This document shows, piece by piece, positions 315-19,755 of a DNA stretch of 20,072 nt. The stretch lies in IMG/VR virus record IMGVR_UViG_3300009164_002870, positions 1-20,072 of that record; one strand, 5' to 3'. Position 1 is the stretch's first letter, and every line of letters begins with the position of its first letter. The notes beneath the pieces were generated by a model. That model worked only from the letters and a program-made list of their open reading frames with translations. It did not search any database and was not told the DNA's origin. The DNA is from a virus. Made by a program: the position numbers and the translations under genes.

Positions 315-3008
315 ATGCCTTTAACAAAAATACAATCTGGATCAATTGAAGCAGGTGCAATTCAAACGGCCGATCTATCAGCAAACGCAACTATTGCTTT
401 TGCATCATCTGCTACTTTTGCAAACTCATTAACACCTAAAGTTTCCACAGTTAGTATAGCCAATAGCACTTTTACTGTATTAGATGATACAGCTGTGAAT
501 GTGGGTGGTGGTTATATTGTAGTAACTGGTAGTAATTTTCAAGATGGAGCAACAGTACTAGTTGATACCACTACAGCATCAGCAGTCACATATGTTAATA
601 GTACCACACTACGAGTTCAAGTGCCCGCTAAATCAGCTGCAACATACAATCTTTATGTTGTAAATCCTGATGGTGGTACAGGCATTAGAGTTTCAGGCAT
701 AACTTATTCTTCAGATCCAACTTGGGTCACTACAAGTCCTTTAACTGGTCAAGTATCTGAAGTAGCTTTCAGTTTAAATCTAAGCGCAACAGAAGCTACA
801 TCATATGCTTTGGCTGCAGGTTCATCACTACCATCCGGCACTACATTGGCATCTAATGGTTACTTTTATGGTACTATTACTGTTGGTGCAACCACAACAT
901 ATTCTTTTGATGTAGTTGCTAGCGATAATCAAAACCAAACATCTAATAAAACATTTGGTGTAACAGTTGTATTTGGTGAAGCTAAGTATAATGCAGTAAC
1001 ATTCTTAATGCAATTAGATAATGTATCTCAAGGTGCAAACAATTCTGTTTTTGTAGATACTTCCGCAAACAATCATGCAGTATCCATTTTTTCTGGTAAT
1101 CCAGTTGAAGGATCAAAAAGTCCTTATACAACTAGGACAAATGCATACAGTTATTATTTTCCTTCTAATGGAAATTATCTTTTCGGTGACAACGCTCAAC
1201 TTGCAGCTGGATTTGCCGCAGGAACTACTCCGTTTACGATTGAGTATTGGGTATTTCCTATGACCGCAACCACAGCTCATTTTAGTGTTGGTAGCGGAGG
1301 AGGTTACGGTAATGCTATACAAGTAGGACTACATGGTGATGGAAAATTTAAAGCTGGCCAAGGCAACGGTGGTGGTACAAACTATGAACTAGCCTCATCA
1401 ACCACATATTCTTATGGCCAATGGTATCATGTTGCAGTAACAAAAGATGCAAATCGTTTAATGACAATTTATGTAAATGGTGTGTCTGTTGCTTCCGGTA
1501 CAAACAGTAATGGTGTTACTGGTAGTGCTAGCCGTTGGGTGCTTAATGGATTAAACGACAATAATGGACTAGGTAACAACGGCGGTAAGAATTACATTTC
1601 AAATGCTCGTATTGTAATGGGTAGCGTAGTATATACTGGTAACTTTACTCCAAGTACCTCAGCGTTAACAGCCGTAACAAACACTAAAGTGTTAACAGCG
1701 CAAACTAATAAGTTTGAAGATACGACCGGCATTTCAACTAATGTGCTTAATGATAAGAGTGGAGTTTCTGTGGAGAAGTTTAGTCCTTTTACAACCGCAC
1801 ATGAAACATATTCTTACAATCCTTCTTCAAATACAAATTTTTCTGGATCAGTTTACTTCAATAATAACACCAGCGATGCATTATCAATACCTGGCGCAGC
1901 TTTTCCAAGTGGAGCTTTTACCGCAGAAGCATGGGTGTATTTAACTAGAACACCTAATGGAGCTATTTTCTGCTCTCGTCATACAGGCGGAACAATACCT
2001 ATACTTTTTGGTCCTAGTAACGGAAACGTTGCAAGTTTAGATGGCCAATACATGCAATTAGCTCTTTATGATGGCAGTAATTGGGCTGGAGTTGTTTCAA
2101 CACAAAAAGTAGATTTAGGTGAATGGACTCACGTTGCTGGAGTGTTTGATGGTTCAACTACAAAAATTTATATTAATGGTGTTGAAGGAACTAGTGGAAC
2201 ACGATCCACTTGGGTATCTCCTAATGGTAACGTAATTTTTATTGGTAGACATTGGGATACAAATAATAATAACTTTTTTAATGGTTACATCGCAGATGCT
2301 CGACTTACTAGTGGTGCCAAATACACTACCACTTTTACTCCACCAACAGCACCGCCAGCCGCAACAAGCAACACTACATTCTTACTACAAGGAACAAATT
2401 GTGGATTGTATGATGCTAGTATGCAAAACAATATATTGACCTATGGTGGTATTGGTGCAAATACTTCAGTAAAGAAATTTAGTTCAGCAAGTGCCTATTT
2501 TAATGGTTCTAGTCAATATTTCGCTATACCTACAGGTTCATATCCTGGATCTAATGGTGGATTTGAACTAGGTGCTGGCGATTGGACAATAGAATTCTGG
2601 TTATATGTAAACTCATTTGGTAGTGGTGCTGGCCTCATTGAATGGAGGACTGGCAATAACAATCAACCCCATTTAATATTAGGTGAACCTAGTGGTAAAA
2701 AATTAGTTTGGAGATTTGGTGGAAATTCTTTGATCACATCTCCTACTGATCTTTCTGCGGCCACTTGGTACCATGTTGCTCTTTGTAAATCTGGTAGCAG
2801 TACAAAAATGTTTATCAATGGTACGCAAACTAGTTCAACTTATAGTGACACTCAAACATATACAGCAGAAGATTCCATAGTAAAAATAGGAACTACTTGG
2901 GATAATAATTATTTAAATGGAAATATAGATGAATTGAGAATCACTAAAGGTTTTGCTAGATATACGGCTAACTTTACAGCACCAACTGAAAAATTTACGG
3001 ACATATAA
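315..3008 (+). CDS. tail adhesin/fibre with IPT/TIG, Ig-like and three LamG-like domains
   Basis: An 897-residue virion adhesin candidate. Residues 1-40 form a short conserved attachment segment (MPLTKIQSGSIEAGAIQT) shared in style with the two minus-strand adhesins. Residues about 40-131 look like an IPT/TIG Ig-like fold (GGGYIVVTGSNFQDGA, VVNPDGGTG). Residues about 132-220 look like a He_PIG/cadherin-like domain (SNGYFYGTITVG). Three concanavalin A/LamG-like units follow at about 228-448, 458-676 and 688-893, each with an FTIEYWV-type strand, a W(Y/T)HVA motif, an (I/F)(Y/F)(V/I)NG strand and a closing ARYTANFT-type motif. LamG folds commonly bind glycans, so the tips probably contact host surface polysaccharide (inference). 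The start ATG follows the spanin stop by one base, and the stop overlaps the next start (TAATG). Placement among lysis genes is consistent with a late gene. Confidence 0.8.
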   Translation: MPLTKIQSGSIEAGAIQTADLSANATIAFASSATFANSLTPKVSTVSIANSTFTVLDDTAVNVGGGYIVVTGSNFQDGATVLVDTTTASAVTYVNSTTLRVQVPAKSAATYNLYVVNPDGGTGIRVSGITYSSDPTWVTTSPLTGQVSEVAFSLNLSATEATSYALAAGSSLPSGTTLASNGYFYGTITVGATTTYSFDVVASDNQNQTSNKTFGVTVVFGEAKYNAVTFLMQLDNVSQGANNSVFVDTSANNHAVSIFSGNPVEGSKSPYTTRTNAYSYYFPSNGNYLFGDNAQLAAGFAAGTTPFTIEYWVFPMTATTAHFSVGSGGGYGNAIQVGLHGDGKFKAGQGNGGGTNYELASSTTYSYGQWYHVAVTKDANRLMTIYVNGVSVASGTNSNGVTGSASRWVLNGLNDNNGLGNNGGKNYISNARIVMGSVVYTGNFTPSTSALTAVTNTKVLTAQTNKFEDTTGISTNVLNDKSGVSVEKFSPFTTAHETYSYNPSSNTNFSGSVYFNNNTSDALSIPGAAFPSGAFTAEAWVYLTRTPNGAIFCSRHTGGTIPILFGPSNGNVASLDGQYMQLALYDGSNWAGVVSTQKVDLGEWTHVAGVFDGSTTKIYINGVEGTSGTRSTWVSPNGNVIFIGRHWDTNNNNFFNGYIADARLTSGAKYTTTFTPPTAPPAATSNTTFLLQGTNCGLYDASMQNNILTYGGIGANTSVKKFSSASAYFNGSSQYFAIPTGSYPGSNGGFELGAGDWTIEFWLYVNSFGSGAGLIEWRTGNNNQPHLILGEPSGKKLVWRFGGNSLITSPTDLSAATWYHVALCKSGSSTKMFINGTQTSSTYSDTQTYTAEDSIVKIGTTWDNNYLNGNIDELRITKGFARYTANFTAPTEKFTDI

Positions 3009-5027: not shown

Positions 5028-6059
5028 ATGATGTTATCAGTTGATTCAAAATACATTCGCCTATTATCCTTCCGTTTGCGTAACTTCAAGCAGAAGAATG
5101 ATTACCTTTGGAATTTCTCATGTCCACTATGCGGTGATAGTAAGAAAAATAAATTAAAGGCTCGTGGTTATGTTTTCAAAAAAGGTAACGATCTATTCTA
5201 TACATGTCACAATTGCGGTGTGGGGTTAAATCTTGGAAATCTTATCAAACATGTTGATGACAACACCCACAAAGAATATGTACTCGAAAGATACACATCA
5301 GGTAAATCAAATAACTCCAAAGTCGCCAACACCACATTTAACATCACGCCTCCCAAATTCGGCAAAGTGGAAAAGCAAAAAGTATTTGAACAAGGAGAAT
5401 GGGTCGACAAGTTACCTGCTGGACATTTTTGTTTAGACTACATTAAGTCTAGAAAGATTCCTGAAAAGCATTACAAACTGTTGGCATATACTGATAAGTA
5501 TCGACAATTTGTAACAGACCTAGTACCTGATTGCGATAAACAATTGATCAATGATGCAAGGTTGGTCATACCATTTTATGATGAATATAATGACCTAATT
5601 GCCATCTCAGGCCGTGCATTGGTGACTAGTGATAGAACCTTGCGTTATGTCACCATTCGTACAAAAGAATCTGATAGTAAATTGGTATATGGCATGGAAA
5701 GAGTTGATCTAAATCAAACAGTATATCTTGTTGAGGGACCACTCGATTCATTGTTCTTAGATAATTGTTTGGCGAGTGGTGATGCCAACCTTGCATTGAC
5801 GGCAAAAAGTATTTCAGCAGGTAAAAAAGTTTTAATATTTGATAATGAACCACGCAATAAAGAAATCGTGAAGATGATGCAAAATGCGATCAAAAGTGAC
5901 CATTTTATAGTCATTTGGCCAGACAATATGAATGGTAAAGATATTAATGAGATGGTACTAAACGGATATAGTCAATCAGAGATTCAAAGTATTATAAGTA
6001 GTAACACCTTCAAAGGACTTGAAGCACAAGCTAAATTTACATTTTGGAAAAAAATATAA
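5028..6059 (+). CDS. 61: DNA primase, T4 gp61 family
   Basis: A 343-residue protein, the same length class as T4 gp61. It has an N-terminal zinc-binding domain with CPLC (C32, C35) and CHNC (C60, C63). A TOPRIM-type catalytic region shows the VEGPLDSLF motif (E236) and an LIFDNEPRNKE motif (D272). Such primases make short RNA primers for lagging-strand synthesis and act with the replicative helicase (gp41 in T4). Two tandem ATGs (5028, 5031) are possible starts; conserved residues begin immediately (SVDSKYIRLLS), so no later start is acceptable. There is no Shine-Dalgarno, and a sigma70-like promoter ends four bases upstream. The next gene, nrdA, follows after about 100 bases, giving a replication/nucleotide block. 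Confidence 0.88.
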   Translation: MMLSVDSKYIRLLSFRLRNFKQKNDYLWNFSCPLCGDSKKNKLKARGYVFKKGNDLFYTCHNCGVGLNLGNLIKHVDDNTHKEYVLERYTSGKSNNSKVANTTFNITPPKFGKVEKQKVFEQGEWVDKLPAGHFCLDYIKSRKIPEKHYKLLAYTDKYRQFVTDLVPDCDKQLINDARLVIPFYDEYNDLIAISGRALVTSDRTLRYVTIRTKESDSKLVYGMERVDLNQTVYLVEGPLDSLFLDNCLASGDANLALTAKSISAGKKVLIFDNEPRNKEIVKMMQNAIKSDHFIVIWPDNMNGKDINEMVLNGYSQSEIQSIISSNTFKGLEAQAKFTFWKKI

Positions 6060-7972: not shown

Positions 7973-8965
7973 ATGATTAAGAAAACAGATTCAAGGATGA
8001 CCGATGAACGGACATATTTTAAACCTTTTAATTATCCTTGGGCTTACGATGCATGGCTTAAGCATGAGCAATCTCATTGGTTGCATACTGAAGTGCCAAT
8101 GCTCGAAGATGTTAAGGATTGGAAAAAGAAACTTACAAAAGAAGAAAAACAGTTCCTCACACACATCTTTAGATTCTTCACCCAAGGAGACATTGACGTT
8201 GCTGGCGGTTATGTTAATAATTATCTTCCTTATTTCCCACAACCAGAAATTCGGATGATGTTATTGGGCTTTGCTGCTCGTGAAGCCTTACATATTGCAG
8301 CTTACAGTCATTTGATTGAAACACTTGGTTTACCTGATACTACATACAATGAGTTTATGGCGTATGCTGAAATGAAAGAGAAACACGACTATGTTATGGA
8401 CATTTCTGGTAAAAATACTACTAAAGAAAATACAGCAACTCACATCGCTGTATTCTCAGCATTTACCGAAGGTATGCAGTTGTTTAGCTCTTTTATTATG
8501 TTACTTAATTTTCCACGACATGGCAAAATGAAAGGTATGGGTCAGATTGTTACTTGGTCTATCGTTGATGAAACTCAACACACCGAGAATATGATTAAAT
8601 TGTTCCGTACATATATCGAAGAAAACCGTGAGATTTGGAACGATGATCTGAAAAGTAGACTATATACTATAGCTGAACGCATGGTAGAATTAGAAGATAA
8701 GTTTATTGATTTGGCATTCCAAATGGGTGACATGGAAGATTTAGATGCTGAAGATGTTAAAAAGTATATTCGTTATATTGCTGATCGCAGATTGATTTCA
8801 TTAGGACTCAAAGGTCAGTTTAAAGTAAAACGCAACCCTCTACCATGGGTAGAAGAAATGATTAACGCACCAACACACACCAATTTCTTTGAGAACAGAG
8901 CAACAGACTATGCTAAAGGTTCTCTATCAGGAGATTGGGGTGATGTATGGGGTAGGGCAGCCTAA
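7973..8965 (+). CDS. nrdB: ribonucleotide reductase class Ia, small subunit NrdB
   Basis: A 330-residue ferritin-like radical-generating (beta) subunit. Using ATG 7973, the metal and radical residues fall in the expected spacing: D73, E104 and H107 in AAREALH, and tyrosyl-radical Y111 four residues after the histidine; a second helix pair carries E in FTEGMQ and E/H in DETQHTE. It houses the di-iron/tyrosyl radical cofactor and passes the radical to NrdA. ATG 7973 is preferred over an in-frame TTG at 7949, because AGGA (7964-7967) lies five bases upstream and the TTG would overlap nrdA. The stop overlaps the iscU start (TAATG), so Fe-S assembly genes are translationally coupled to this iron enzyme. 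Confidence 0.94.
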   Translation: MIKKTDSRMTDERTYFKPFNYPWAYDAWLKHEQSHWLHTEVPMLEDVKDWKKKLTKEEKQFLTHIFRFFTQGDIDVAGGYVNNYLPYFPQPEIRMMLLGFAAREALHIAAYSHLIETLGLPDTTYNEFMAYAEMKEKHDYVMDISGKNTTKENTATHIAVFSAFTEGMQLFSSFIMLLNFPRHGKMKGMGQIVTWSIVDETQHTENMIKLFRTYIEENREIWNDDLKSRLYTIAERMVELEDKFIDLAFQMGDMEDLDAEDVKKYIRYIADRRLISLGLKGQFKVKRNPLPWVEEMINAPTHTNFFENRATDYAKGSLSGDWGDVWGRAA

Positions 8966-9342
8966 TGGCATATTCAGATAAAGTAATCGATCACTACGAA
9001 AATCCACGAAATGTGGGTAAAATGGAAATTGACGATACTGTTGGTACAGGTATGGTCGGTGCACCAGCATGTGGTGATGTGATGAAATTACAAATAAAGG
9101 TAGAAAATGGTATTATTAGAGATGCTCGTTTCAAGACATATGGATGCGGTTCAGCGATTGCCTCTAGTTCACTCGTCACGGAATGGGTCAAGGGTAAAAC
9201 GTTGGAGCAGGCTAGCGCAATTAAGAATGTTGAAATTGCAGCGGAACTCGCACTCCCGCCGGTTAAAATCCATTGTAGTATCCTTGCGGAAGACGCTATT
9301 AAGGCAGCAGTAAATGATTATCGTAACAAACACGGCCTCTAA
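8965..9342 (+). CDS. iscU: IscU-like Fe-S cluster scaffold protein
   Basis: A 125-residue protein nearly identical in length to bacterial IscU. All functional residues are present: C36 and D38 (GAPACGDVMK), C61 (YGCGSAIASSS), H103 and C104 (KIHCSILAEDA). The LPPVK motif (97-101), recognised by the HscA chaperone in the host system, is intact. IscU receives sulfur from a cysteine desulfurase and iron to build [2Fe-2S] clusters, then hands them on. No iscS, hscA, hscB or ferredoxin gene is in the window, so the phage protein would rely on the host partners. It is coupled to nrdB by a TAATG overlap and overlaps iscA by 29 bases. Complete conservation argues for a working enzyme rather than a decaying passenger. 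Confidence 0.93.
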   Translation: MAYSDKVIDHYENPRNVGKMEIDDTVGTGMVGAPACGDVMKLQIKVENGIIRDARFKTYGCGSAIASSSLVTEWVKGKTLEQASAIKNVEIAAELALPPVKIHCSILAEDAIKAAVNDYRNKHGL

Positions 9343-9634
9343 CAAAATACAATCCAATTTGCAGAAGCGTGGCAAAGGGATTGGTATTAAAGTTGGTGTT
9401 AGAACTACTGGTTGTAGTGGATTGGCATATACATTAGAATATGTTGATGATCTATTACCAGAAGATGTAGTACAAGACAATACAGAATATAAAATCATAT
9501 CAGATCCTAAAAGTCTGGCCTATTTAAATGGCATGACCATAGACTATGTAAGAAATGGTCTGAATGAAGGTTTCGAATTTGTAAATCCAAACGAAAAAGA
9601 TCGTTGTGGATGTGGTGAGAGTTTTAGAGTTTAA
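9314..9634 (+). CDS. iscA: A-type Fe-S carrier, IscA-like
   Basis: A 106-residue A-type carrier with the three conserved cysteines C34 (TTGCSGLAY), C98 and C100 (CGCGESF). The motif KGIGIKVGVRTTGCSGLAY and the final GESF-R-V place it with IscA more than with ErpA or SufA, though these are hard to separate. A-type proteins bind a [2Fe-2S] or [4Fe-4S] cluster and deliver it to apo-enzymes. ATG 9314 lies inside iscU; the family N-terminus (M-I-x-(V/L)-T) fits this start exactly and no later ATG is available. The iscU-iscA order is the same as in bacterial isc operons, suggesting the pair was acquired together. Confidence 0.92.
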   Translation: MIIVTNTASNKIQSNLQKRGKGIGIKVGVRTTGCSGLAYTLEYVDDLLPEDVVQDNTEYKIISDPKSLAYLNGMTIDYVRNGLNEGFEFVNPNEKDRCGCGESFRV

Positions 9635-9651: not shown

Positions 9652-9765
9652 ATGTTAGACACACTATTTTGGGTAGCAGTTGGTGCATTTGTAGGTTGGC
9701 ATTTCCCTGAGCCATTTTGGGCTAAAGCAATTAAAGCTAAAGTTTTGGGAATGATCAAGAAATGA
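9652..9765 (+). CDS. 37-aa single-pass membrane protein
   Basis: A short ORF with an excellent AGGAG ribosome site (9641-9645) six bases before the ATG. The product has a hydrophobic segment at about residues 5-17 (LFWVAVGAFVGWH) and a lysine-rich C-terminus (AKAIKAKVLGMIKK), predicting one membrane span with a positively charged cytoplasmic tail. Its stop overlaps the next start by ATGA. The strong ribosome site and coupling make it likely real despite its size. Function is unknown. Confidence 0.7.
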   Translation: MLDTLFWVAVGAFVGWHFPEPFWAKAIKAKVLGMIKK

Positions 9766-10202
9766 AGAAAATTAAATTATGCCTATTGACTGTACTCATT
9801 ATGATTGGCTCAGGTGCAGTTGCCAATCCATATAATTGGCCAGTCACTAGAGTTATTGATGGTGATACAGTAGAATTTGATGCACCATTCATGCCTGATC
9901 CATTGCCTAAGAAGTTGTCAATTCGTGTACTTGGAGTTGACACACCAGAAAAAGGCTTTCGTGCTCAATGTCCTAAAGAAGCAGAAGCAGCATTAAAGGC
10001 CTCACAATTCACCAAAGATACATTAAACAAAGCATATCAAACCAATCAAACTGTTCTTATTGAATTAAAAGAACATGACAAGTATGGTGGCCGTGTGTTA
10101 GGTGATGTAATTATCAATGGTCAAAAGTTGTCAGCATTGTTAATCGCCAATGGCCATGCAAGGCCTTATTTTGGTGAAAAGAAATCTTCATGGTGTAATT
10201 AA
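9762..10202 (+). CDS. secreted thermonuclease (SNase-like) protein
   Basis: A 146-residue protein with a signal peptide (about residues 1-21, positively charged start, hydrophobic core, AVA cleavage-like site) followed by a staphylococcal-nuclease-like OB fold. Motifs are VIDGDTVEF (D33, D35, the metal/fold region), IRVLGVDTPE (R55, D60, E63) and KYGGRVLGDV (R111), corresponding to the catalytic Arg, Asp, Glu and Arg of SNase. It would hydrolyse DNA or RNA, with calcium, in the periplasm or outside the cell. Export is unusual for a phage enzyme that would act on the host chromosome; it may attack incoming competitor DNA or extracellular nucleic acid (inference). It is coupled to neighbours by ATGA and TAATG overlaps. 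There are two cysteines (C70, C145) in the mature protein. Confidence 0.85.
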   Translation: MKKIKLCLLTVLIMIGSGAVANPYNWPVTRVIDGDTVEFDAPFMPDPLPKKLSIRVLGVDTPEKGFRAQCPKEAEAALKASQFTKDTLNKAYQTNQTVLIELKEHDKYGGRVLGDVIINGQKLSALLIANGHARPYFGEKKSSWCN

Positions 10203-10351
10203 TGAAGTCACTACGACACCTATGTGACAATTGTGGTTCAGATTTTACAATTAAATATGATGATGCACAATGCGAAACTGATCCTTTGCATTGTCCATTT
10301 TGTGCGGAGTATATGGTAGATTCTGAAAATGTTAATGATGATGATGAATGA
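10202..10351 (+). CDS. 49-aa zinc-ribbon protein
   Basis: A short ORF starting inside the nuclease stop (TAATG) and ending over the next start (ATGA). The product contains two CxxC knuckles, CDNC (about residues 8-11) and CPFC (about 31-34), in the spacing of a zinc ribbon, then an acidic Asp/Glu/Asn tail. Zinc ribbons of this kind bind nucleic acid or proteins. Coupling at both ends supports it being a real gene. No specific role is known to me. Confidence 0.75.
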   Translation: MKSLRHLCDNCGSDFTIKYDDAQCETDPLHCPFCAEYMVDSENVNDDDE

Positions 10352-10761
10352 CTTGGTACTATTATAATACACCAGCCGAAATAACTTCAGAAGAAACTGA
10401 GGGTTATTTCGGTTTTGTGTATCTTATCACGCACATCAAAACAGGCCAAAAGTATGTTGGTAAGAAGTTCTTTACCAAATCTAAGACCAAGCAGGTCAAG
10501 GGTAAAAAGAAAAAGATTCGTGTTGCCTCTGATTGGGAAACCTATTGGGGATCCAATACCAAACTACAAGAAGATGTGAAACTGAATGGGGAAGAAGAAT
10601 ATACCCGTGAGGTGTTGCATCTATGTAAAAATCGAAGTGAGTGTTCCTATTGGGAAACTTATGAGATATTCAACCGCCACGCTCTGATGAGTGATTGGTA
10701 CTACAATGAATGGGTTTCCTGTCGTATTAGGAAAGCTCACCTAATTAAATCCAAACCTTAA
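10348..10761 (+). CDS. GIY-YIG-like endonuclease
   Basis: A 137-residue protein whose residues about 21-42 show FVYLITHIKTGQKYVGKK, a variant of the GIY-YIG nuclease motif (here VYLI and KYVGKK). A conserved C-terminal part carries YWETYEIFN, with the glutamate expected in the metal-binding site, and a WYYNEW block. Basic segments (KGKKKKIR) fit DNA contact. In T4-like phages such small stand-alone proteins are often annotated as Seg-like or putative endonucleases; it could be a homing enzyme or a recombination/repair nuclease. No intron or interrupted target gene is seen next to it, so mobility is not demonstrated. The start overlaps the zinc-ribbon stop by ATGA. Confidence 0.65.
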   Translation: MTWYYYNTPAEITSEETEGYFGFVYLITHIKTGQKYVGKKFFTKSKTKQVKGKKKKIRVASDWETYWGSNTKLQEDVKLNGEEEYTREVLHLCKNRSECSYWETYEIFNRHALMSDWYYNEWVSCRIRKAHLIKSKP

Positions 10762-11497: not shown

Positions 11498-11523
11498 AAA
11501 CCCACCTTTCGGTGGGTTTTTTT
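11498..11523 (+). terminator. bidirectional intrinsic terminator
   Basis: AAACCCACC-TTTC-GGTGGGTTT forms a stem of nine pairs (six of them CCCACC/GGTGGG) with a four-base loop, followed by a run of seven T on the plus strand and, read backwards, an A/T-rich tract on the minus strand. It sits between convergent genes (plus-strand end 11496, minus-strand end 11522), so it can stop transcription from both sides. Confidence 0.93.
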
Positions 11524-14500
11524 AATTCTTCGTCAAAGCAAAGCAAGAATCTATACCACCAGCTATTTGATACCAATTGGTATTTGTTCCTACTTGTACT
11601 GGACTAGATTTATTAACTCTATCATTAAGTCCTAATTGTCCGTTAGAGTTTTCTCCAGTTACCCATAATGTACCATCACTTCTAATTGCAGCAAGATACC
11701 CATATCCAAAACCTACATCAGTCCAAGTATTTGTTCCAATTTGAGTAGGACTGGATACCGCATTGATTTTGTTTTGTCCTAATATACCCAAACTATTGCG
11801 ACCCCATGTCCATAATGTACCATTTGTTTTCAAAGCTGCAACCGATCCTACACCACTAGTGACAAATATTTTACTCCAGTCTGTTGATGTACCTACTTGT
11901 ACTGGACTGGATCTATCGATGACCGCCTCATCATTAAGTCCAAGTGCACCTCCAGAATTATATCCCCAAACCCATAATGTACCATCTGTTTTAATTGCAT
12001 AGCAAGCGGAATTATCAGCAACAACATCACTCCAATTTGTACCTGTTCCTACTTGCGTTGGACTGGATTTTTCAACTAAATTATTTTGTCCTAATTGGCC
12101 ACGATTATTACTTCCCCATGTCCACAATGTACCATCAGATTTGATGGCTGCAGCTGAAAGAGAGGCGGAAGCTTTTATCCAAGAACCGCTGTCTACCATT
12201 CCTGGACTAAGCCTGTCAGCAGTACTATTGTTTCCTTGAAGTCCATTCGCTCCAGAACCCCACATCCATAATGTATTATCAGATTTAATTGCAATTGCCG
12301 CACTTGTTCGAATCATGAAGTTATCTGTCCAATTAGTATCTGTTCCTATTTGACTAGGACTGGATCTTCCTTGGGTTGCTGAAGTTGATCCAAATCCTAA
12401 TTGGCCACTAGAATTTACACCCCAACTCCATAATGTACCATCGTCTTTACGAGCTATTATACCAGGGTAACTACCTTCATGATTGGCTGATACTTTAGTC
12501 CAATTTGGTGATGTACCAATTTGAGTAGGACTTGATCGAGAAGTTAAAACACCTTGAACTAATATGTCTTTATCTCCATTTCCCCAACCCCAAAGTAAAA
12601 TTCGATTTTTAACATTCAGACTAAATGTTCTTGACACTTCTTGTAGAGTTTCATCAGTTGCTTTGACTGTAAACGAATAATTGGTGGGTGAAGAAACGCT
12701 AACTGTACCATAAAAATAACCATTCGCTAACAATGAAGTACCAGCTGGTAGTGATGTAGTATTTGAATATGTTATAGATGAATCACCAGAAGTTGCTATA
12801 ATATTCAATGCTATTGGAACATCATCATATTGATTAGGTAAAGTTGCACTGGTTGTAAATCCTAATAATGATGATGTTGTTTGACCAATAATAAATCTAT
12901 CACCACTTGAAACTTTAGACCATGTTGTTCCTGATCCTAGTTGTACTGGACTTGACCTATAAACTTTATCATTTAATCCTAATGTGCCATATCCATTGTA
13001 TCCCCACAACCATAAAGTACCATTAGTTTTAATCGCACCAACATTACCAAAATTTCCTATTGCAACTTTAGATGGTCCTTGAGCCCAATTGGTATCTGTT
13101 CCTATTTGTACTGGACTTGAAGTACGATTTGATGAATTAGCAAAACCTACTCCTGCTATATTTCTTCCTTGGCCACCAAATGTGTTGCTACCCCAAGACC
13201 ATATTGTGCCATTGGTTTTTGTACAAATTGACATTGCGGTTTCTGCTTCGTTTCCTTGATGCGGTCCCGAAATCACAGGATAAGACCAATCCGCCAAAGC
13301 TCCAATTTGAACTGGACTTGATGCGTTAGCTACAGAACCAATTCCTAATCTACCTGCTGTATTTACACCCCAACCCCATAATGTACCATTAGTTTTAACA
13401 ACTAAAGTTGCTTGACCCGAAGTAAAAATTCTACCGCCCCATGCAGTACTTCCCCAATCTGTTAACGCACCTACTTGTACGGGACTTGATCTTCTAAGAC
13501 TAGCAAGTGATCCAGATAATCCAAGTTGGCCAAGTGTGCCATCACCCCAAGCCCATAATGTACCATCAGATTTAATTGCAAATGAACATTCAACTCCAGC
13601 AGCAATATCTAACCAAGTTGTTTCTGATCCTATTTGTACTGGACTTAAAAAGGGTGTTGAATTGTTGGTTCCCAAAACTCCTTGGTTGGCAGCTCCCCAT
13701 GCCCATAATGTACCATCAGATTTAATTGCTAAAGTGTGATTAAAACCAACTTCTACTTTGGACCAATTTGTTAACGCACCAACTTGAGTTGGACTTGATC
13801 GAGAAATTTGATCACCGTGTCCTAACTGATTACGTACTCCAGATCCCCACGACCATAAAGTGCCTTTATATTTGACAGCTAAAGTGGCCGAATCGCATGA
13901 AGAAAAAGCGTTCCAATCAGTTAATGCACCAATTTGTGTAGGACTGGATCTGTAATTACCTGAACCCACATTTAAACCAAGTTCACCTGAACCGGTTATA
14001 CCACCAATAGCAAAAGTTTTTACAATTTTGGGTACTTCAACAAATACACTAAATGTTCTTGAAGTATCTTGTAATTCAGCATCAGTTGCTTTAACATCAA
14101 AAGTGAAAGTTGTATTTGCAATTTCGCTGTATGCACCATAAAAATAACCATTCGCCAACAATGAAGTGCCAGTTGGTAATGATGTAGTATTTGAATATGT
14201 TATAGCTGAATCGGATGAAGCGGAAATATTAACTGCAAAAGAGTCAGTAATAAATGTATTGGCCAATGTTGCAGCGGTACTGAATGATGGAAGGGAACTA
14301 TAAGTTATACCATTAACACGAATTGATGTACCACCATCAGGATTAACAACAAATAAATTATATGTACCTGCTGCTCTAGCGGGCACTTCAACCCTCAGAG
14401 TGGTAGAATCAACAAATGATGTAGAAGTGGCCGGTGTATTACCCACCAATACTTGAGCACCAGATTGAAAATTGGTACCCGTTAATACAATATAACCACC

Positions 14501-14674
14501 ACCTATGTTGACAGCATTAGCCGTTGATACAATATATGACACATTTGCAGTATTGGCCAAACGGACTTTAGGTGTTAATGTTTGAGCAAAAGCAACAACG
14601 GCTGTATTGGAGAATTTTTCAGTTGGAACTGAATAGTTTTTTAAATGACGAGATTTGATTTTAAATAGTGGCAT
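11522..14674 (-). CDS. tail adhesin with IPT/TIG, Ig-like domains and two RCC1-type propellers
   Basis: A 1050-residue adhesin candidate. Residues 1-36 form a short attachment segment ending AQTLTPKV. Residues about 37-130 are IPT/TIG-like (GGGYIVLTGTNFQSGAQ, VVNPDGGTS). Residues about 131-215 are He_PIG-like (LLANGYFYGAYS). Residues 217-600 hold seven RCC1-type repeats. Residues 602-690 carry a second He_PIG-like domain, and 691-1050 seven more RCC1 repeats. Repeat hallmarks are (S/T)DGTLW(A/S)WG, GQLG and RSSP(V/T)Q(V/I)G, at about 50-residue spacing. Seven repeats is the number that closes an RCC1 beta-propeller, so two propellers are predicted. It follows the 586-aa adhesin by six bases, with no clear ribosome site, suggesting coupled translation. 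Receptor binding is inferred from the shared chassis with the LamG adhesin. Confidence 0.82.
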   Translation of the reverse strand: MPLFKIKSRHLKNYSVPTEKFSNTAVVAFAQTLTPKVRLANTANVSYIVSTANAVNIGGGYIVLTGTNFQSGAQVLVGNTPATSTSFVDSTTLRVEVPARAAGTYNLFVVNPDGGTSIRVNGITYSSLPSFSTAATLANTFITDSFAVNISASSDSAITYSNTTSLPTGTSLLANGYFYGAYSEIANTTFTFDVKATDAELQDTSRTFSVFVEVPKIVKTFAIGGITGSGELGLNVGSGNYRSSPTQIGALTDWNAFSSCDSATLAVKYKGTLWSWGSGVRNQLGHGDQISRSSPTQVGALTNWSKVEVGFNHTLAIKSDGTLWAWGAANQGVLGTNNSTPFLSPVQIGSETTWLDIAAGVECSFAIKSDGTLWAWGDGTLGQLGLSGSLASLRRSSPVQVGALTDWGSTAWGGRIFTSGQATLVVKTNGTLWGWGVNTAGRLGIGSVANASSPVQIGALADWSYPVISGPHQGNEAETAMSICTKTNGTIWSWGSNTFGGQGRNIAGVGFANSSNRTSSPVQIGTDTNWAQGPSKVAIGNFGNVGAIKTNGTLWLWGYNGYGTLGLNDKVYRSSPVQLGSGTTWSKVSSGDRFIIGQTTSSLLGFTTSATLPNQYDDVPIALNIIATSGDSSITYSNTTSLPAGTSLLANGYFYGTVSVSSPTNYSFTVKATDETLQEVSRTFSLNVKNRILLWGWGNGDKDILVQGVLTSRSSPTQIGTSPNWTKVSANHEGSYPGIIARKDDGTLWSWGVNSSGQLGFGSTSATQGRSSPSQIGTDTNWTDNFMIRTSAAIAIKSDNTLWMWGSGANGLQGNNSTADRLSPGMVDSGSWIKASASLSAAAIKSDGTLWTWGSNNRGQLGQNNLVEKSSPTQVGTGTNWSDVVADNSACYAIKTDGTLWVWGYNSGGALGLNDEAVIDRSSPVQVGTSTDWSKIFVTSGVGSVAALKTNGTLWTWGRNSLGILGQNKINAVSSPTQIGTNTWTDVGFGYGYLAAIRSDGTLWVTGENSNGQLGLNDRVNKSSPVQVGTNTNWYQIAGGIDSCFALTKN
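11525..12604 (-). repeat. coding tandem repeats, RCC1 propeller C (7 units)
   Basis: Seven imperfect repeats of about 150 bases encode the C-terminal propeller of the 1050-residue adhesin. On the plus strand they appear as recurring CCATAATGTACCATC-like and ACTGGACT(A/G)GAT-like words (reverse complements of the DGTLW and RSSPVQ codons). Such repeats can recombine and change blade number or order. Confidence 0.75.
12707..12784 (-). repeat. 78-base near-identical duplicate, copy A
   Basis: Lies in the second He_PIG-like domain of the 1050-residue adhesin and matches 14135-14212 at 73 of 78 positions by direct comparison. It encodes the SNTTSLPAGTSLLANGYFYG region. Confidence 0.85.
12875..14026 (-). 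repeat. coding tandem repeats, RCC1 propeller B (7 units)
   Basis: Seven imperfect repeats encode the first propeller of the 1050-residue adhesin. One unit (around residues 380-420) carries an insertion (SGSLASLRR) and another (around 500-520) an NIAGVGFANSSNR insertion; these loops are candidate receptor-contact sites. Confidence 0.72.
14135..14212 (-). repeat. 78-base near-identical duplicate, copy B
   Basis: Lies in the first He_PIG-like domain of the same gene. It differs from copy A at five bases, of which some are synonymous. A more diverged third version is found at about 15901-15978 in the neighbouring adhesin. Confidence 0.85.
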
Positions 14675-14680
14675 ATTGTA

Positions 14681-16441
14681 TTAGTTATATGTTTGGAAAA
14701 AACCATGTAAATAACCATAGTTAACTTTGTTCCAATTTGTATTTGTTCCTACTTGAACCGGACTGGAACTATTAACGTTTCCAAAATTTCGTCCTTGTTG
14801 ACCAAAATCATTTGCTCCCCATGTCCATAATGTACCATCTGTTTTAACGGCCGCTATTGCTGGACTACCCCAACCACAATGAATTTTATTTAACCCTTGA
14901 GCCCAATTAGTCAATGCTCCTACTTGTATTGGACTGGATCTATTAATGTTAGTATTTGTTCCTGCACTTCCATTACCGCCATATCCCCAAGACCATAATG
15001 AACCATTTGTTTTTGTACACATCGCAACACAGTAAGACAATTGACCACCTAACATTGGATAATTCCAATCTGTTAATGCTCCTACTTGTATTGGACTGGA
15101 TCTATTAATGACATTATTTGTTCCATTTGTACCAGCACCGCCTTGTCCAGTAGTCCATAATGTACCATCTGTTTTAACTGCCAGTATGTTTGCGCCTTTC
15201 ATTGTGATTCTACCGCCCCAAGCAACACTTCCCCAGTTTGTTAATGCTCCTACTTGTATTGGACTTGATCTATTAACTCTGTCCAATAATGCAAGTTCTC
15301 CACTAGAATTATTTCCCCATGCCCATAGAGTACCATCAGTTTTAACTCCAAAAGCACTATATGTTCCAACAGCAACATTTAACCAAGTTGTTCCTGATCC
15401 TATTTGTGTTGGACTGGATCTAGTAACATTTAGGTCATTTAATCCTAATTGACCATATTGATTATTTCCCCATGACCACATTGTACCATCTGTTCTAATT
15501 GCTACTATATGTTGTTGACCAGTACCAATTTTTGACCAATTAGTATTTGATCCTATTTGTACGGGACTACTTGGACTAGTATTATAGTCATTGTTACCTA
15601 TTAGTCCGTAAGTATTTCCGCCCCATCCCCATAATGTACCATTTAATTTAATTGCATGTGTTGTACCAACACCGGCCGCCATTATGTTCCAATCTGTTAA
15701 TGCTCCCACTTGAGTCGGACTTGATCTAGATAAGTTGTCACCTGTACTTAATTGTCGATTACCGTTATTACCAACTGCATATATTCTTTCTGGAGGATTC
15801 AATGCAACTGTTAAACTAAATGTTCTTGATGTGTCTTGCAACTCAATGTCAGTAGCCTTTACTGTAAATGAATAGGTTGTTTCAACACCAACGCTAACAG
15901 TACCATAAAAATAACCATTAGACAATAATGTGGTGCCCGCTGGTAATGCTGTGGTGTTGGCGTAAGTAATATTAGAATCAGAAGATGCGGAAATAGCCAC
16001 ACTAAAGGCAGCATTAGTGGTTTGATTAGATAATGATGCACCAGTGCTAAATGCTGGGAAGGCACTATAAGTTAAAGCATTAACACGAATTGCCGTACCA
16101 CCATCAGGATTGACCACATAAACATTATATGTGCCTGATGCTTTTGCTGGTACTTGAGCTCGTAATGTAGAACTGTTTACAAAAGTGGTGCTGTTGGCTG
16201 TAGAGGTGTCAATAAGGACAGAAGCACCTGATTGAAAATCGGAACCTGTAATGACAAGATAACCACCTGCCGTATTCATAGCCGTATCATCTAATGCTGT
16301 ATAAGTGTCATCGGTTTCAACTACTGTAAGAATTTTAGGAGTAAGAGTTTGTGCAAAGGCCGCAACGGCTGTATTGGACAACTTTTCGGTTGACACCGCA
16401 TAATTGTCAATATTATGGGTTTCTACTTTGGTTAATGGCAT
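14681..16441 (-). CDS. tail adhesin with IPT/TIG, Ig-like domain and one RCC1-type propeller
   Basis: A 586-residue protein with the same chassis as its downstream neighbour: attachment segment (MPLTKVETHNIDNYAVSTEK, AQTLTPK), IPT/TIG-like domain at about 37-130 (GGYLVITGSDFQSGAS, VVNPDGGTA), He_PIG-like domain at about 131-215 (LLSNGYFYGTVS), then seven RCC1 repeats at 218-586 (each with an RSSPIQVGALT-like core and a DGTLW(A/T)WG-like strand). It is predicted to be displayed on the tail and to recognise a host surface molecule. It is the promoter-proximal gene of a two-gene minus-strand unit. AGGA lies nine bases before the ATG, and an AATAAATA late-type motif is further upstream. Alternatives are a capsid decoration protein or fibre chaperone, but the three-paralogue pattern favours an adhesin. 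Confidence 0.82.
   Translation of the reverse strand: MPLTKVETHNIDNYAVSTEKLSNTAVAAFAQTLTPKILTVVETDDTYTALDDTAMNTAGGYLVITGSDFQSGASVLIDTSTANSTTFVNSSTLRAQVPAKASGTYNVYVVNPDGGTAIRVNALTYSAFPAFSTGASLSNQTTNAAFSVAISASSDSNITYANTTALPAGTTLLSNGYFYGTVSVGVETTYSFTVKATDIELQDTSRTFSLTVALNPPERIYAVGNNGNRQLSTGDNLSRSSPTQVGALTDWNIMAAGVGTTHAIKLNGTLWGWGGNTYGLIGNNDYNTSPSSPVQIGSNTNWSKIGTGQQHIVAIRTDGTMWSWGNNQYGQLGLNDLNVTRSSPTQIGSGTTWLNVAVGTYSAFGVKTDGTLWAWGNNSSGELALLDRVNRSSPIQVGALTNWGSVAWGGRITMKGANILAVKTDGTLWTTGQGGAGTNGTNNVINRSSPIQVGALTDWNYPMLGGQLSYCVAMCTKTNGSLWSWGYGGNGSAGTNTNINRSSPIQVGALTNWAQGLNKIHCGWGSPAIAAVKTDGTLWTWGANDFGQQGRNFGNVNSSSPVQVGTNTNWNKVNYGYLHGFFQTYN
14684..15790 (-). repeat. coding tandem repeats, RCC1 propeller A (7 units)
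   Basis: Seven imperfect repeats of about 150 bases encode the single propeller of the 586-residue adhesin. The word encoding RSSPIQVGALT recurs almost unchanged at about 14920, 15080 and 15250, suggesting recent spread between blades. Confidence 0.75.
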
Positions 16442-16487: not shown

Positions 16488-16516
16488 TTGACAGAGTGAT
16501 TATTTTAACATATAAT
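16488..16516 (+). promoter_or_regulatory. perfect sigma70 consensus promoter TTGACA-17-TATAAT
   Basis: TTGACA at 16488-16493 and TATAAT at 16511-16516 are separated by 17 bases, a full match to the host housekeeping consensus. Transcription should start near 16523, leaving a leader of about 20 bases with an AAGGA ribosome site before ATG 16543. It is back-to-back with the minus-strand late-type motif, so one short region controls early plus-strand and late minus-strand units. Confidence 0.9.
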
Positions 16517-16916: not shown

Positions 16917-17091
16917 TAAAAACTATTGGGGTGAACCTGATGAAGTAGATTTTCCTGATTGGATGCTACCTGATAACCACCCAAACAAAAACAAAACTAT
17001 GCCAAGAAAATCCAGTCATAGTCTAACCGAAGCAATTAATCAGGCACTTGCCAAACCACCCGTAACGATTATCATAGAGAAACCAGAATGA
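16909..17091 (+). CDS. 60-aa hypothetical protein
   Basis: A small polar protein with a Trp/Asp/Pro-rich N-terminal half (YWGEPDEVDFPDWMLPDNHP) and a helical segment (SLTEAINQALAKPP). It overlaps both neighbours (8 bases before, ATGA after). No recognisable domain. Confidence 0.6.
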   Translation: MNNKNYWGEPDEVDFPDWMLPDNHPNKNKTMPRKSSHSLTEAINQALAKPPVTIIIEKPE

Positions 17092-17306
17092 GTATCATAC
17101 AAGAAACGATCAATAATTTGTGGTATTGGACTTATGGCCTAGTAGTCGGTTGGGGTGCTAGTTTTACTATTCTCCTTGCATTGGTCATATTACTATACAT
17201 CAAGATCATACGACTAAACCGAAGATTATCTTATCTACAAAATCGAGTGGTCGCCAATGAAAGAGACCATAACCTAGAGAGTAAGAAAACTCTATTAAAA
17301 GGATGA
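17088..17306 (+). CDS. 72-aa single-pass membrane protein
   Basis: One hydrophobic span at about residues 15-40 (YGLVVGWGASFTILLALVIL and a following IKIIRL) with a basic, coiled-coil-like cytoplasmic tail (RLNRRLSYLQNRVV). The positively charged side suggests an N-out, C-in orientation. It is coupled by ATGA overlaps on both sides. Possible roles include membrane-level exclusion or lysis control, but nothing in the sequence decides this. Confidence 0.65.
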   Translation: MSIIQETINNLWYWTYGLVVGWGASFTILLALVILLYIKIIRLNRRLSYLQNRVVANERDHNLESKKTLLKG

Positions 17307-17467
17307 ATCTCAATAAGACCTACGATAAGACCGCTAAGTGGGATCATACATCCAATAAGTGGTCTATTTACGATAAACCGAAGTATCAATGGGACAAAGC
17401 CAGTCCCGTCTTTGATGACCTGCAAGACGCCCTAGATTGGATTATAGAACATGATAGAATTAATTGA
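17303..17467 (+). CDS. 54-aa hypothetical protein
   Basis: A short ORF starting in the previous stop (ATGA) and overlapping the next gene by 17 bases. The product is rich in Lys, Asp and Trp (WDHTSNKWSIYDKPKYQW, then DDLQDALDWIIEH). Coupled position supports coding. Function unknown. Confidence 0.6.
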   Translation: MNLNKTYDKTAKWDHTSNKWSIYDKPKYQWDKASPVFDDLQDALDWIIEHDRIN

Positions 17468-18017
17468 GGTGTCTACTAAAGAACAAAAGGCCTTAGTAAA
17501 GTATATCATTGAAAATCACCATTCCTATGTACCAACCAATTCTTCAGTAGGCCGCCGTATAGATTGGCTGATATATTATAATGATGAACCCGTAGGCATG
17601 ATAGGCATTGGATCTTCCGTGTACCCGCCTCCGAAAGATATACTCCGACACCTCAACCTCAGTAAAGATCAATATAAATCAGTATTCAATAATATAGCCA
17701 ATAACTGGCGATTTTGCATGACCCAATCCATTAAAAATGCTGGAACTCAAGTATTAAAACAATTAAGACATAAAGCACCTAATGCATGGAAGATCAAGTA
17801 TGGTAATGAATTGAATCATATCATTACCTTTGTAGGTGCTGGTAAGAATGGTGCCGTATATCTTGCTGATAATTGGAAAAAGATTGGTGAAACGGCTGGT
17901 CTACCTAAGCATAAGAGTTCCTCTATGAAATGGAATACTGGAGAACAATTGAAAGAACTATTCGTAAAACCAACAGGTGAAAACAAAAAGATTATATTAA
18001 TAAAGGGATTGAAATGA
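17451..18017 (+). CDS. DruA/Mom-like GNAT-fold protein (DUF4338-type)
   Basis: A 188-residue protein whose landmarks follow the DUF4338/DruA and Mom pattern of GNAT-related proteins: HH at 23-24, a strand pair DWLIYYNDEPVGMIGIG (38-54), NNWRF (84-88), the helix N96-AGTQVLKQL, KYGNE (116-120), ITFVGAGKNGAVYLADNW (125-142) and IGETAG (145-150). Mom of phage Mu adds a carbamoylmethyl group to adenine and shields DNA from restriction; DruA is part of the Druantia defence system. By analogy this could modify phage DNA or act on host defence. No second Druantia or Mom gene is beside it. It is about half the length of many DruA proteins. The pattern match is by eye. Confidence 0.62.
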   Translation: MIELIEVSTKEQKALVKYIIENHHSYVPTNSSVGRRIDWLIYYNDEPVGMIGIGSSVYPPPKDILRHLNLSKDQYKSVFNNIANNWRFCMTQSIKNAGTQVLKQLRHKAPNAWKIKYGNELNHIITFVGAGKNGAVYLADNWKKIGETAGLPKHKSSSMKWNTGEQLKELFVKPTGENKKIILIKGLK

Positions 18018-18175
18018 ATACACTAGAAAGACTAAACGATTGGTGTGGTGAAATGCTGAATAAAGCAATAAAATATGATGACCTAATCACCTTTACTATG
18101 TTTTCCTTAATGTTTATTGTTATGGTTATCTGTATGGTAATGGGTATTCTAGGTGGGTTAGGTTATCTACAATGA
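18014..18175 (+). CDS. 53-aa single-pass membrane protein
   Basis: A hydrophilic N-terminus (residues 1-24) is followed by one methionine-rich membrane segment, about residues 25-52 (FTMFSLMFIVMVICMVMGIL). It starts in the stop of the DruA/Mom-like gene (ATGA) and shares ATGA with the next. Nine methionines in 53 residues is striking. Unknown function; a membrane-acting host-control protein is possible. Confidence 0.62.
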   Translation: MNTLERLNDWCGEMLNKAIKYDDLITFTMFSLMFIVMVICMVMGILGGLGYLQ

Positions 18176-18634: not shown

Positions 18635-18831
18635 AAGAAACCGTAGAGATCAGACTACCAAAGAAATTACTGTATAAGTTAATGCTGATGGCACACGAAC
18701 AGGACATTACATTAAACCAGTTAATAGAGAATATTCTAGTAAAGACCATCAAGGAACACAAGGAAGATAGAATAACCACACATGAGAAACATCAAGAGTG
18801 GTTGAAGAATGTACGAAAGACCGAATATTAA
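18631..18831 (+). CDS. ribbon-helix-helix DNA-binding protein
   Basis: A 66-residue protein with an N-terminal ribbon-helix-helix pattern: strand VEIRLPKKL (about 5-13), helix to about residue 24 (LYKLMLMAHEQD), a turn, and helix ITLNQLIENILVKTI (about 26-40). Such proteins dimerise and place the strand pair in the DNA major groove, acting as repressors (Arc, HicB and CopG types). It may control the cluster it lies in or host genes. It is coupled to the 59-aa gene by ATGA. No operator site could be identified. Confidence 0.7.
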   Translation: MKETVEIRLPKKLLYKLMLMAHEQDITLNQLIENILVKTIKEHKEDRITTHEKHQEWLKNVRKTEY

Positions 18832-18833
18832 TT

Positions 18834-19445
18834 ATGAATCTTCCAACAAGAATAAAACACGATTATTCTAATAAAGAATTAGAAGATAAATTACATAATT
18901 TCTATAATTCCGCAGAATGGAGATATGCCAGAGAACAGGCCAAAAGAGAATTAACACCTATGTGTCCTGTATGTGGTTCTGAACATAATCTCCATGTAGA
19001 TCATATTAAACCAATACGATATTTCTTTGAGGAAAGACTTAATCCAAGCAATCTACAAATATTATGTGGCGATTGTAATTTGGAGAAAGGGTCGATGCTG
19101 AATTGGTCTCTTGAATGGCATATAAAGAATAAAACTATGCTAGAAAATGAAAGAAACTATATTTCCTTACAAGTCCATAGAAAAGAACAAATAAAAAATA
19201 GTCTCCATGCCAATAAAGGGTTAGAGGGATGGGAACAAACCGAACTAAAATCCTGTTATGCTAGTTACCTCTCCAGATGTAAGGGTAAGAATATCCAACC
19301 TATATCTAAGTATGATCTGAGATGTTATATAGAGGAAAATATGTGGGTAAGAGGTGATAGTCCTTGGAGACATTCCAATCTTTTAAAGAGGCATATTAAA
19401 GAAAACTATACCAATATTAATCGTATAGATAGAGGTAGTAAGTGA
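18834..19445 (+). CDS. HNH endonuclease
   Basis: A 203-residue protein from ATG 18834; a GTG at 18798 would extend it by 12 residues into the preceding gene. Residues about 44-87 are a classic HNH site: CPVC (C44, C47), LHVDHIKP (D56, H57), NPSNLQILC (N73) and CGDC (C78, C81). The C-terminal half is basic, with a possible second DNA-binding region (SPWRHSNLLKRHIKENY). HNH enzymes cut DNA using one metal ion and in phages serve as homing endonucleases or packaging nucleases. No intron or split gene is seen here, so a free-standing homing enzyme is most likely. Confidence 0.85.
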   Translation: MNLPTRIKHDYSNKELEDKLHNFYNSAEWRYAREQAKRELTPMCPVCGSEHNLHVDHIKPIRYFFEERLNPSNLQILCGDCNLEKGSMLNWSLEWHIKNKTMLENERNYISLQVHRKEQIKNSLHANKGLEGWEQTELKSCYASYLSRCKGKNIQPISKYDLRCYIEENMWVRGDSPWRHSNLLKRHIKENYTNINRIDRGSK

Positions 19446-19464: not shown

Positions 19465-19755
19465 ATGCCTGGTGTATATAAAGAAAAAGAATGTCCAGTA
19501 TGCGGTATAATACACCGTAAGAGAGGACTATATTGCTGTCAGACCTGCGCTAACTCTACTCGCATACACTCAGAAGAAACCAAACAGAAAATCTCAGATA
19601 GTAATAGAGAAACCTCACAGTCGCCAGAGAGAATTGCACACGGACACATGCTCAAGGCAGGTACTCTAATGGCTGCTGACGAATACGCAATAAGCATTCC
19701 AGACTTATCAGAGATGCCAGACCTAGATGGCTACAGTAACGCCTCCGACTGGTAA
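19465..19755 (+). CDS. zinc-ribbon protein with NUMOD3-like motif
   Basis: A 96-residue protein. C10 and C13 (CPVC) with C25 and C28 (CQTC) make a short zinc ribbon. Residues 33-48 (IHSEETKQKISDSNRE) resemble the NUMOD3 motif (H-S-x-E-(T/S)-x-x-K-(I/M)) found in DNA-binding parts of homing endonucleases. The C-terminal third is acidic. There is no nuclease core, so it may be a separated DNA-binding module, a remnant, or a partner of the HNH protein 19 bases upstream. The start has no strong ribosome site. Confidence 0.6.
   Translation: MPGVYKEKECPVCGIIHRKRGLYCCQTCANSTRIHSEETKQKISDSNRETSQSPERIAHGHMLKAGTLMAADEYAISIPDLSEMPDLDGYSNASDW

Follow-up and report, generated by a model that had tools for sequence, protein, structure and literature searches.

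A GNAT-type relative of DruA/DUF4338 and Mom proteins in aquatic T4-like viruses, a candidate DNA base modification enzyme

The virus record IMGVR_UViG_3300009164_002870 (20,072 bases; referred to as the window, which is the full length of the record) carries on its plus strand, at 17451..18017, a gene for a 188-residue protein (ATG to TGA) of GNAT type, related to DruA/DUF4338 and Mom proteins and a candidate DNA base modification enzyme. The evidence leans somewhat towards an enzyme of this superfamily that modifies a base in the phage DNA and thereby shields it from host restriction. The gene is strongly conserved in freshwater and marine T4-like viruses of bacteria. Newly found here is that in 29 IMG/VR loci its ortholog is followed directly on the 3' side by a previously unannotated ORF with a predicted HinP1I fold.

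Family assignment and conservation

A reading made from the sequence only had described a series of short motifs in this ORF as the outline of DruA and Mom proteins. Every one of these motifs was found, and in the order given: H23-H24, YND-EPVGMIGIG (42-54), N84-N-W-R-F88 and N96-A-G-T-Q-V-L102 in the first half of the protein, followed by Y117-G118, I125-T-F-V128, Y137-L-A-D-N-W142 and I145-G-E-T-A-G150 in the second. The profile matches, relatives and conservation described below show that the pattern exceeds chance. The C-terminus of the family has the form SSSMKW...VKPTGENKK, with invariant residues in SMKW and VKPTGENKK.

Profile searches against the DUF4338 and Mom families, which the sequence-only reading had proposed, gave a match above cut-off to Pfam PF14236 ('Druantia protein DruA', DUF4338; 37.7 bits, cut-off 27, E 1.8e-9) and a weak one to phrog_1384 ('Mom-like DNA modification protein'; E 2.5e-5). 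The Pfam Mom family PF25680 did not match the protein at E up to 10; Mu Mom itself scored 2e-75 against it. Members of a divergent subclade fall under the PF14236 cut-off (L060, 23.3 bits; L050, no match). The protein had no tblastn match at E 0.01 among 50,697 cultured phages and was matched by none of the PADLOC DruA models, and a sequence search of the PDB with the family profile gave no match. In profile-profile comparisons the family matched transposon-type DUF4338 proteins (Planctomycetota genomes and a Thiodictyon plasmid) at E 3e-19, DruA-like proteins including those of Kyanoviridae at E 2e-10, and twelve Mom-type proteins at E 1.3e-9. The comparison alignments were built within this analysis, and E never fell under 0.015 with 40 column-shuffled versions of each. 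By these profiles the protein is placed between DUF4338, DruA and Mom, with transposon-type DUF4338 nearest. The proposed kinship with DruA and Mom is thus borne out, while the outline needs amendment in three respects: the nearest relatives are transposon-type DUF4338 proteins, PF25680 is unmatched, and the Asp/Glu that Mom and DUF4338 share is missing.

The profile-nearest proteins are exemplified by Thiodictyon WP_100917814 (plasmid pTs485), colinear with the family over 166 residues and also matched by the single sequence in tblastn (E 2e-4). The motifs NNxRF, N-(L/A/G)x-(S/T), TF(V/I), GxxYxAxNW and (I/L)GET are common to both; however, DUF4338 proteins have ETFVD/E where the window family has ITFVG. 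The sampled DUF4338 proteins are chromosomal or plasmid-borne, longer and N-terminally extended; the window family has a C-terminus of its own. Cellular DUF4338 relatives were supplied by 16 of the 149 genomes searched in the phylum to which a Planctomycetota MAG with the gene belongs; a PF14236 scan in the phylum of a Bacilli MAG (195 genomes) gave no signal, its controls being equally silent, and so carries no information. Druantia DruA and the DruA-like proteins of Kyanoviridae (phrog_19197; HTVC008M, S-SCSM2R) share PF14236 and a 'VGR...VG.IG.GS' N-terminal half with the family, and the Kyanoviridae proteins come from the T4-like phage group that also carries the window family, frequently with both in one genome. 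These DruA types carry GGKLLA and TTSLYG where the window family has N-x-G-(S/T) and TFVG...VYLADNW.

Members of PF14236 are found as parts of Druantia, fused to DndF, alongside transposons and in T4-like phages of the sea. No biochemical function of PF14236 (DUF4338/DruA) is established to our knowledge, and the literature accessible to our search yielded no activity for any PF14236 protein. One paper describes a Pfam DUF4338 domain as being of GNAT type (PMC10853773).

A first scan of IMG/VR brought up 63 relatives, and a scan with the family profile gave 285 matches. Identity is 75-84% for about 48 of the 62 loci collected first and near 50% for a second clade. Across 26 homologues 52 residues are invariant, and for the nearest relatives dN is 0.10 with dS above 1.6 (dN/dS about 0.06-0.1). 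The gene and its more than 100 IMG/VR relatives are under strong purifying selection. The genome collections gave two matches only, in the Bacilli MAG (L065) and the Planctomycetota MAG (L066), both on contigs of 5-8 kb that are probably phage. A precedent for a Mom-type function comes from Melnitz, whose primase is the nearest among cultured phages and which carries a canonical Mom homologue in a cluster of small ORFs.

Several related phages hold more than one PF14236 protein. The records G003 and G004 (176-177 kb; loci L129-L134) have three each: a 428-residue protein, the short ortholog, and a 369-residue protein whose gene immediately precedes that of a DnaB/gp41-like helicase. In HTVC008M a protein of the 369-residue type lies between DNA polymerase and UvsX, and in one cyanophage record this type is named 'methylcarbamoylase mom'.

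A predicted restriction-type nuclease beside the gene

Genomic context was compared over 1.5 kb on both sides of the gene in 40 distinct loci, the T4 gene names of the neighbours being assigned by reading their sequences. In 27 of them the gene lies in a T4-type interval with gp59 and gp32 homologues, in which a short ORF reads like the gp33 of cyanophages. Five loci have it among gp62, RegA and gp43 homologues, and in the remainder, as in the window, it is found among small or unassigned ORFs.

In several lineages an ORF of about 244 residues without a Pfam match lies directly downstream, for example at 892-1626 in L099. A profile scan found this family in 32 loci, in 29 of which its start lies 3-40 nt beyond the GNAT match; these 29 loci represent 9 lineages at 85% identity, among which the downstream protein has diverged to 52% identity. 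Its predicted structure (pLDDT 85.6) matched HinP1I (Foldseek E 4e-10; Z 16.2 over 207 residues), MspI came second (Z 9.8), a Z of 6.9 followed, and the homing enzyme I-Ssp6803I reached 6.7. The ORF is therefore predicted to have the fold of a HinP1I/MspI-type type II restriction endonuclease, and its invariant residues D42 and S55-x-K57 fit, by reading, a PD-(D/E)xK-like site. The nuclease is present in 15 of the 62 distinct GNAT loci with enough downstream DNA and is absent from the 20,072-base window record.

Three loci depart from the usual arrangement. L237 and L238 have a nuclease that is 40% identical to the others, and in L237 it is followed by a 420-residue DNA methyltransferase-like ORF (phrog_498, E 2.4e-7; annotated DNA methyltransferases of Staphylococcus phages, E 2e-7). 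In L232 the nuclease is at its usual site and the GNAT gene is absent from the 12.9-kb record. Since the nuclease elsewhere adjoins a methyltransferase-like gene, the GNAT gene would occupy the place of a modification enzyme. The nuclease is accompanied by a GNAT gene or an apparent methyltransferase-like gene in all loci but one, and the GNAT gene often stands alone, as modification and restriction would predict. DNA modification is the function with the most support, and the neighbouring nuclease adds a new argument for it.

The main confounder is that all 29 pairs appear to lie in the same genomic interval, apparently at one syntenic site, so that common descent could explain the pairing. 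The nuclease may then be an independent and perhaps mobile element that entered the gp33-gp59 interval, its adjacency reflecting synteny and saying nothing about the GNAT gene. L232, with a nuclease and no GNAT gene, speaks for such independence, as would the HNH ORFs near the gene (L056, L060 and the window) if they are homing nucleases, which are numerous in T4-like phages. Against it stand the HinP1I/MspI fold, which matches far above the homing enzyme, the methyltransferase-like neighbour elsewhere, and the retention of the pair through the divergence of the 9 lineages. We regard an independent nuclease as a serious possibility that falls short of even.

An HNH-like ORF overlapping the GNAT gene in L056, L057 and L060 was considered as a second restriction partner; Pfam made no call and PHROGs gave weak matches, and because HNH genes are also common in such phages it was not counted as evidence. 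In L056 (2396-2956) and L060 (4355-4984) this ORF has a possible winged-helix N-terminus, and its end overlaps the GNAT start. In L049 an ORF at 5033-5722 overlaps the GNAT stop codon by 4 nt and runs off the contig; it carries a methyltransferase-like stretch, 'VVLDTSMGWGDRLAGF...IGCDPN'. Family searches gave no confirmation of a methyltransferase, and the ORF resembles that of L237 over 56 residues only.

Predicted structure and active site

The AlphaFold2 model of the window protein (pLDDT 76.4, pTM 0.71) has the strand and helix order of a GNAT fold, as the sequence-only reading had anticipated, so the outcome which that reading named as refuting, a structure lacking this fold, did not occur. 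Confidence is low in two stretches, the loop that leads to Y137 (130-136) and the C-terminal residues 151-177, the latter nevertheless holding invariant residues. Among 350,542 PDB chains searched with Foldseek the top match was phage Mu Mom (8BV8, E 1.5e-6), which was also first in VIA (Z 14.7 over 155 residues at 3.4 A), and the matches listed by both programs were overwhelmingly GNAT proteins. Generic N-acetyltransferases followed closely (Z 13.6 and below), so the fold alone indicates a GNAT protein only, and the sequence profiles are the more specific evidence.

Many phage and bacterial GNATs act on targets other than DNA, and the near-equal scores of Mom and the generic enzymes would suit an acyltransferase acting on a host protein, a tRNA or a small molecule. 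However, the sequence profiles single out the branch of Mom, DUF4338 and DruA, the canonical acetyl-CoA motif is absent, and the recurrent neighbours are DNA-processing genes, the predicted restriction endonuclease among them. A non-DNA target consequently appears improbable.

A joint alignment identified H24, R87, N96, T/S99, Y137, N141 and G146 as shared with Mom and DUF4338. Residue roles in Mom were taken from the PDB title and this alignment: the title of 8BV8 names S124A as an 'inactive mutant', the change in the chain being at position 114 of the 231-residue form. This serine aligns with T99 of the window protein, a position that is Ser in 7 of 26 homologues. In the 231-residue numbering His48, Arg101, Ser114 and Tyr149 are common to Mom (PF25680, phrog_1384) and the window protein, whereas Asp139 of the Mom SFAD motif corresponds to Gly129 and the C-terminal halves differ. 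The acid at this position is conserved in the SFAD of Mom and nearly so in the TFVD/E of DUF4338; all 26 homologues have a different residue there, Gly in 24 and Ala in 2. The window sequence also lacks the canonical GNAT acyl-CoA motif (R/Q)xxGx(G/A), which is likewise not present at the equivalent site of Mom. The likely active-site frame is therefore kept, but the chemistry need not be that of Mom; the loss of the acidic residue suggests that the chemistry of the window family may differ from Mom's or be absent.

The family-wide loss of this acid, together with the relationship to Druantia-type DruA, would suit a non-catalytic DNA-binding or inhibitory relative, acting either on a DruA-type defence of the host, as decoy or inhibitor, or on the neighbouring nuclease, as immunity or regulatory protein; we give this little credence, as His, Arg, Ser/Thr and Tyr are kept in all homologues at a dN/dS near 0.1, most loci have no adjacent nuclease, and the PADLOC DruA models do not match. 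The decoy role in particular, which the sequence-only reading had offered besides a shield, finds no support, given the conserved catalytic positions and the strong purifying selection, and no druB-E-like neighbours that would indicate a Druantia operon were noticed among the ORFs of the window and its relatives. Of that reading the Mom/DruA kinship and the GNAT fold stand.

Proposed role

In the base-modification reading that we favour, the GNAT enzyme would attach an acyl or other group to a base of the phage DNA itself, and DNA modified in this way would resist host restriction enzymes, its main role being that of a shield. The gene, its family, fold and conservation, the promoter and the fold of the nuclease nearby are supported by computation; we infer the enzymatic activity, DNA as its substrate, the base and the donor, the protection and a functional pairing with the nuclease. 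In the subset of phages with the paired genes, the same modification may protect the phage DNA from the phage-encoded HinP1I-type endonuclease of the next gene, leaving that nuclease free to cut unmodified host or competitor DNA. The arrangement resembles phage Mu Mom in its phage setting and follows the adjacent-nuclease logic of jumbo phages, for which a published survey reports fusions of Mom and REase domains and interprets them as a modification activity joined to a nuclease (PMC7824862). Unlike for Mom, no com-like partner was seen for the window gene.

The 29 loci also resemble a type II restriction-modification system with a HinP1I/MspI-type endonuclease, in which the nuclease lies beside a putative modification gene; here, in contrast, the putative modifier is a GNAT protein rather than a methyltransferase, the genes are phage-borne, and the nuclease is missing from the window. 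A tentative and rather unlikely extension is that the GNAT protein took over from the methyltransferase in a HinP1I-type pair; the result would be a restriction-modification system carried by the phage, with a non-methyl mark and a new chemistry that dispenses with the SFAD/TFVD acid.

As a stand-alone 188-residue PF14236 member that keeps most Mom active-site positions and has relatives beside a restriction-type nuclease, the protein offers a small model for the question of whether DNA base modification is common to the entire DruA family. Were that so, a part of Druantia would be explained and an unexplored DNA modification in abundant aquatic viruses revealed.

Promoter and gene cluster in the window

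The gene had been described as lying downstream of a host-type promoter, and rightly so, since a perfect sigma-70 consensus (TTGACA-17-TATAAT, 12/12; 16488..16516, plus strand; 0.05 expected by chance per window) heads the same-strand cluster that contains it, 26 nt upstream of the first of its small, partly overlapping ORFs. We infer early expression of this cluster. A 54-residue ORF (17303..17467, plus) overlaps the start of the GNAT gene, with which it is likely cotranscribed, and has a look-alike, judged by eye, near the gene in L082. Upstream of it, a 72-residue ORF (17088..17306, plus) with one apparent membrane segment, again by eye, has a homologue close to the GNAT gene in L082; in L001 a similar ORF adjoins that gene. 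The end of the gene overlaps by 4 nt a hydrophobic ORF of 53 residues (18014..18175, plus). Further downstream, an HNH endonuclease (18798..19445, plus) has a homologous ORF near the GNAT gene in L111 and L114, the loci compared giving no supporting evidence for a functional pairing of the two, and a small zinc-ribbon/NUMOD3 ORF (19465..19755, plus) recurs near the gene in L071, L082, L111 and L114.

The fetched loci contain, overlaps included, 169 perfect TTGACA-(16-18)-TATAAT promoters, spread over many loci (e.g. L004, L068 and L120), which suggests, as far as promoter sequences can tell, that related phages rely on consensus host promoters.

Elsewhere in the window, proteins of 1050 and 586 residues encoded on the minus strand (11522-14674 and 14681-16441) contain many RCC1-like repeats ('TLWSWG...SSPVQIG') and share an N-terminal segment similar to that of an 897-residue ORF at 315-3008; they are candidates for unusual tail or adhesion proteins. 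Directly after ribonucleotide reductase-like genes lies a pair for Fe-S cluster assembly (8965-9634), consisting of a NifU/IscU-like ORF (8965-9342, phrog_8429) and an adjoining ORF (9314-9634) that is IscA-like by eye. A SegE-type GIY-YIG endonuclease (PF19835, E 8e-31) is encoded at 10348-10761, with a staphylococcal-nuclease-like ORF (9762-10202) upstream of it.
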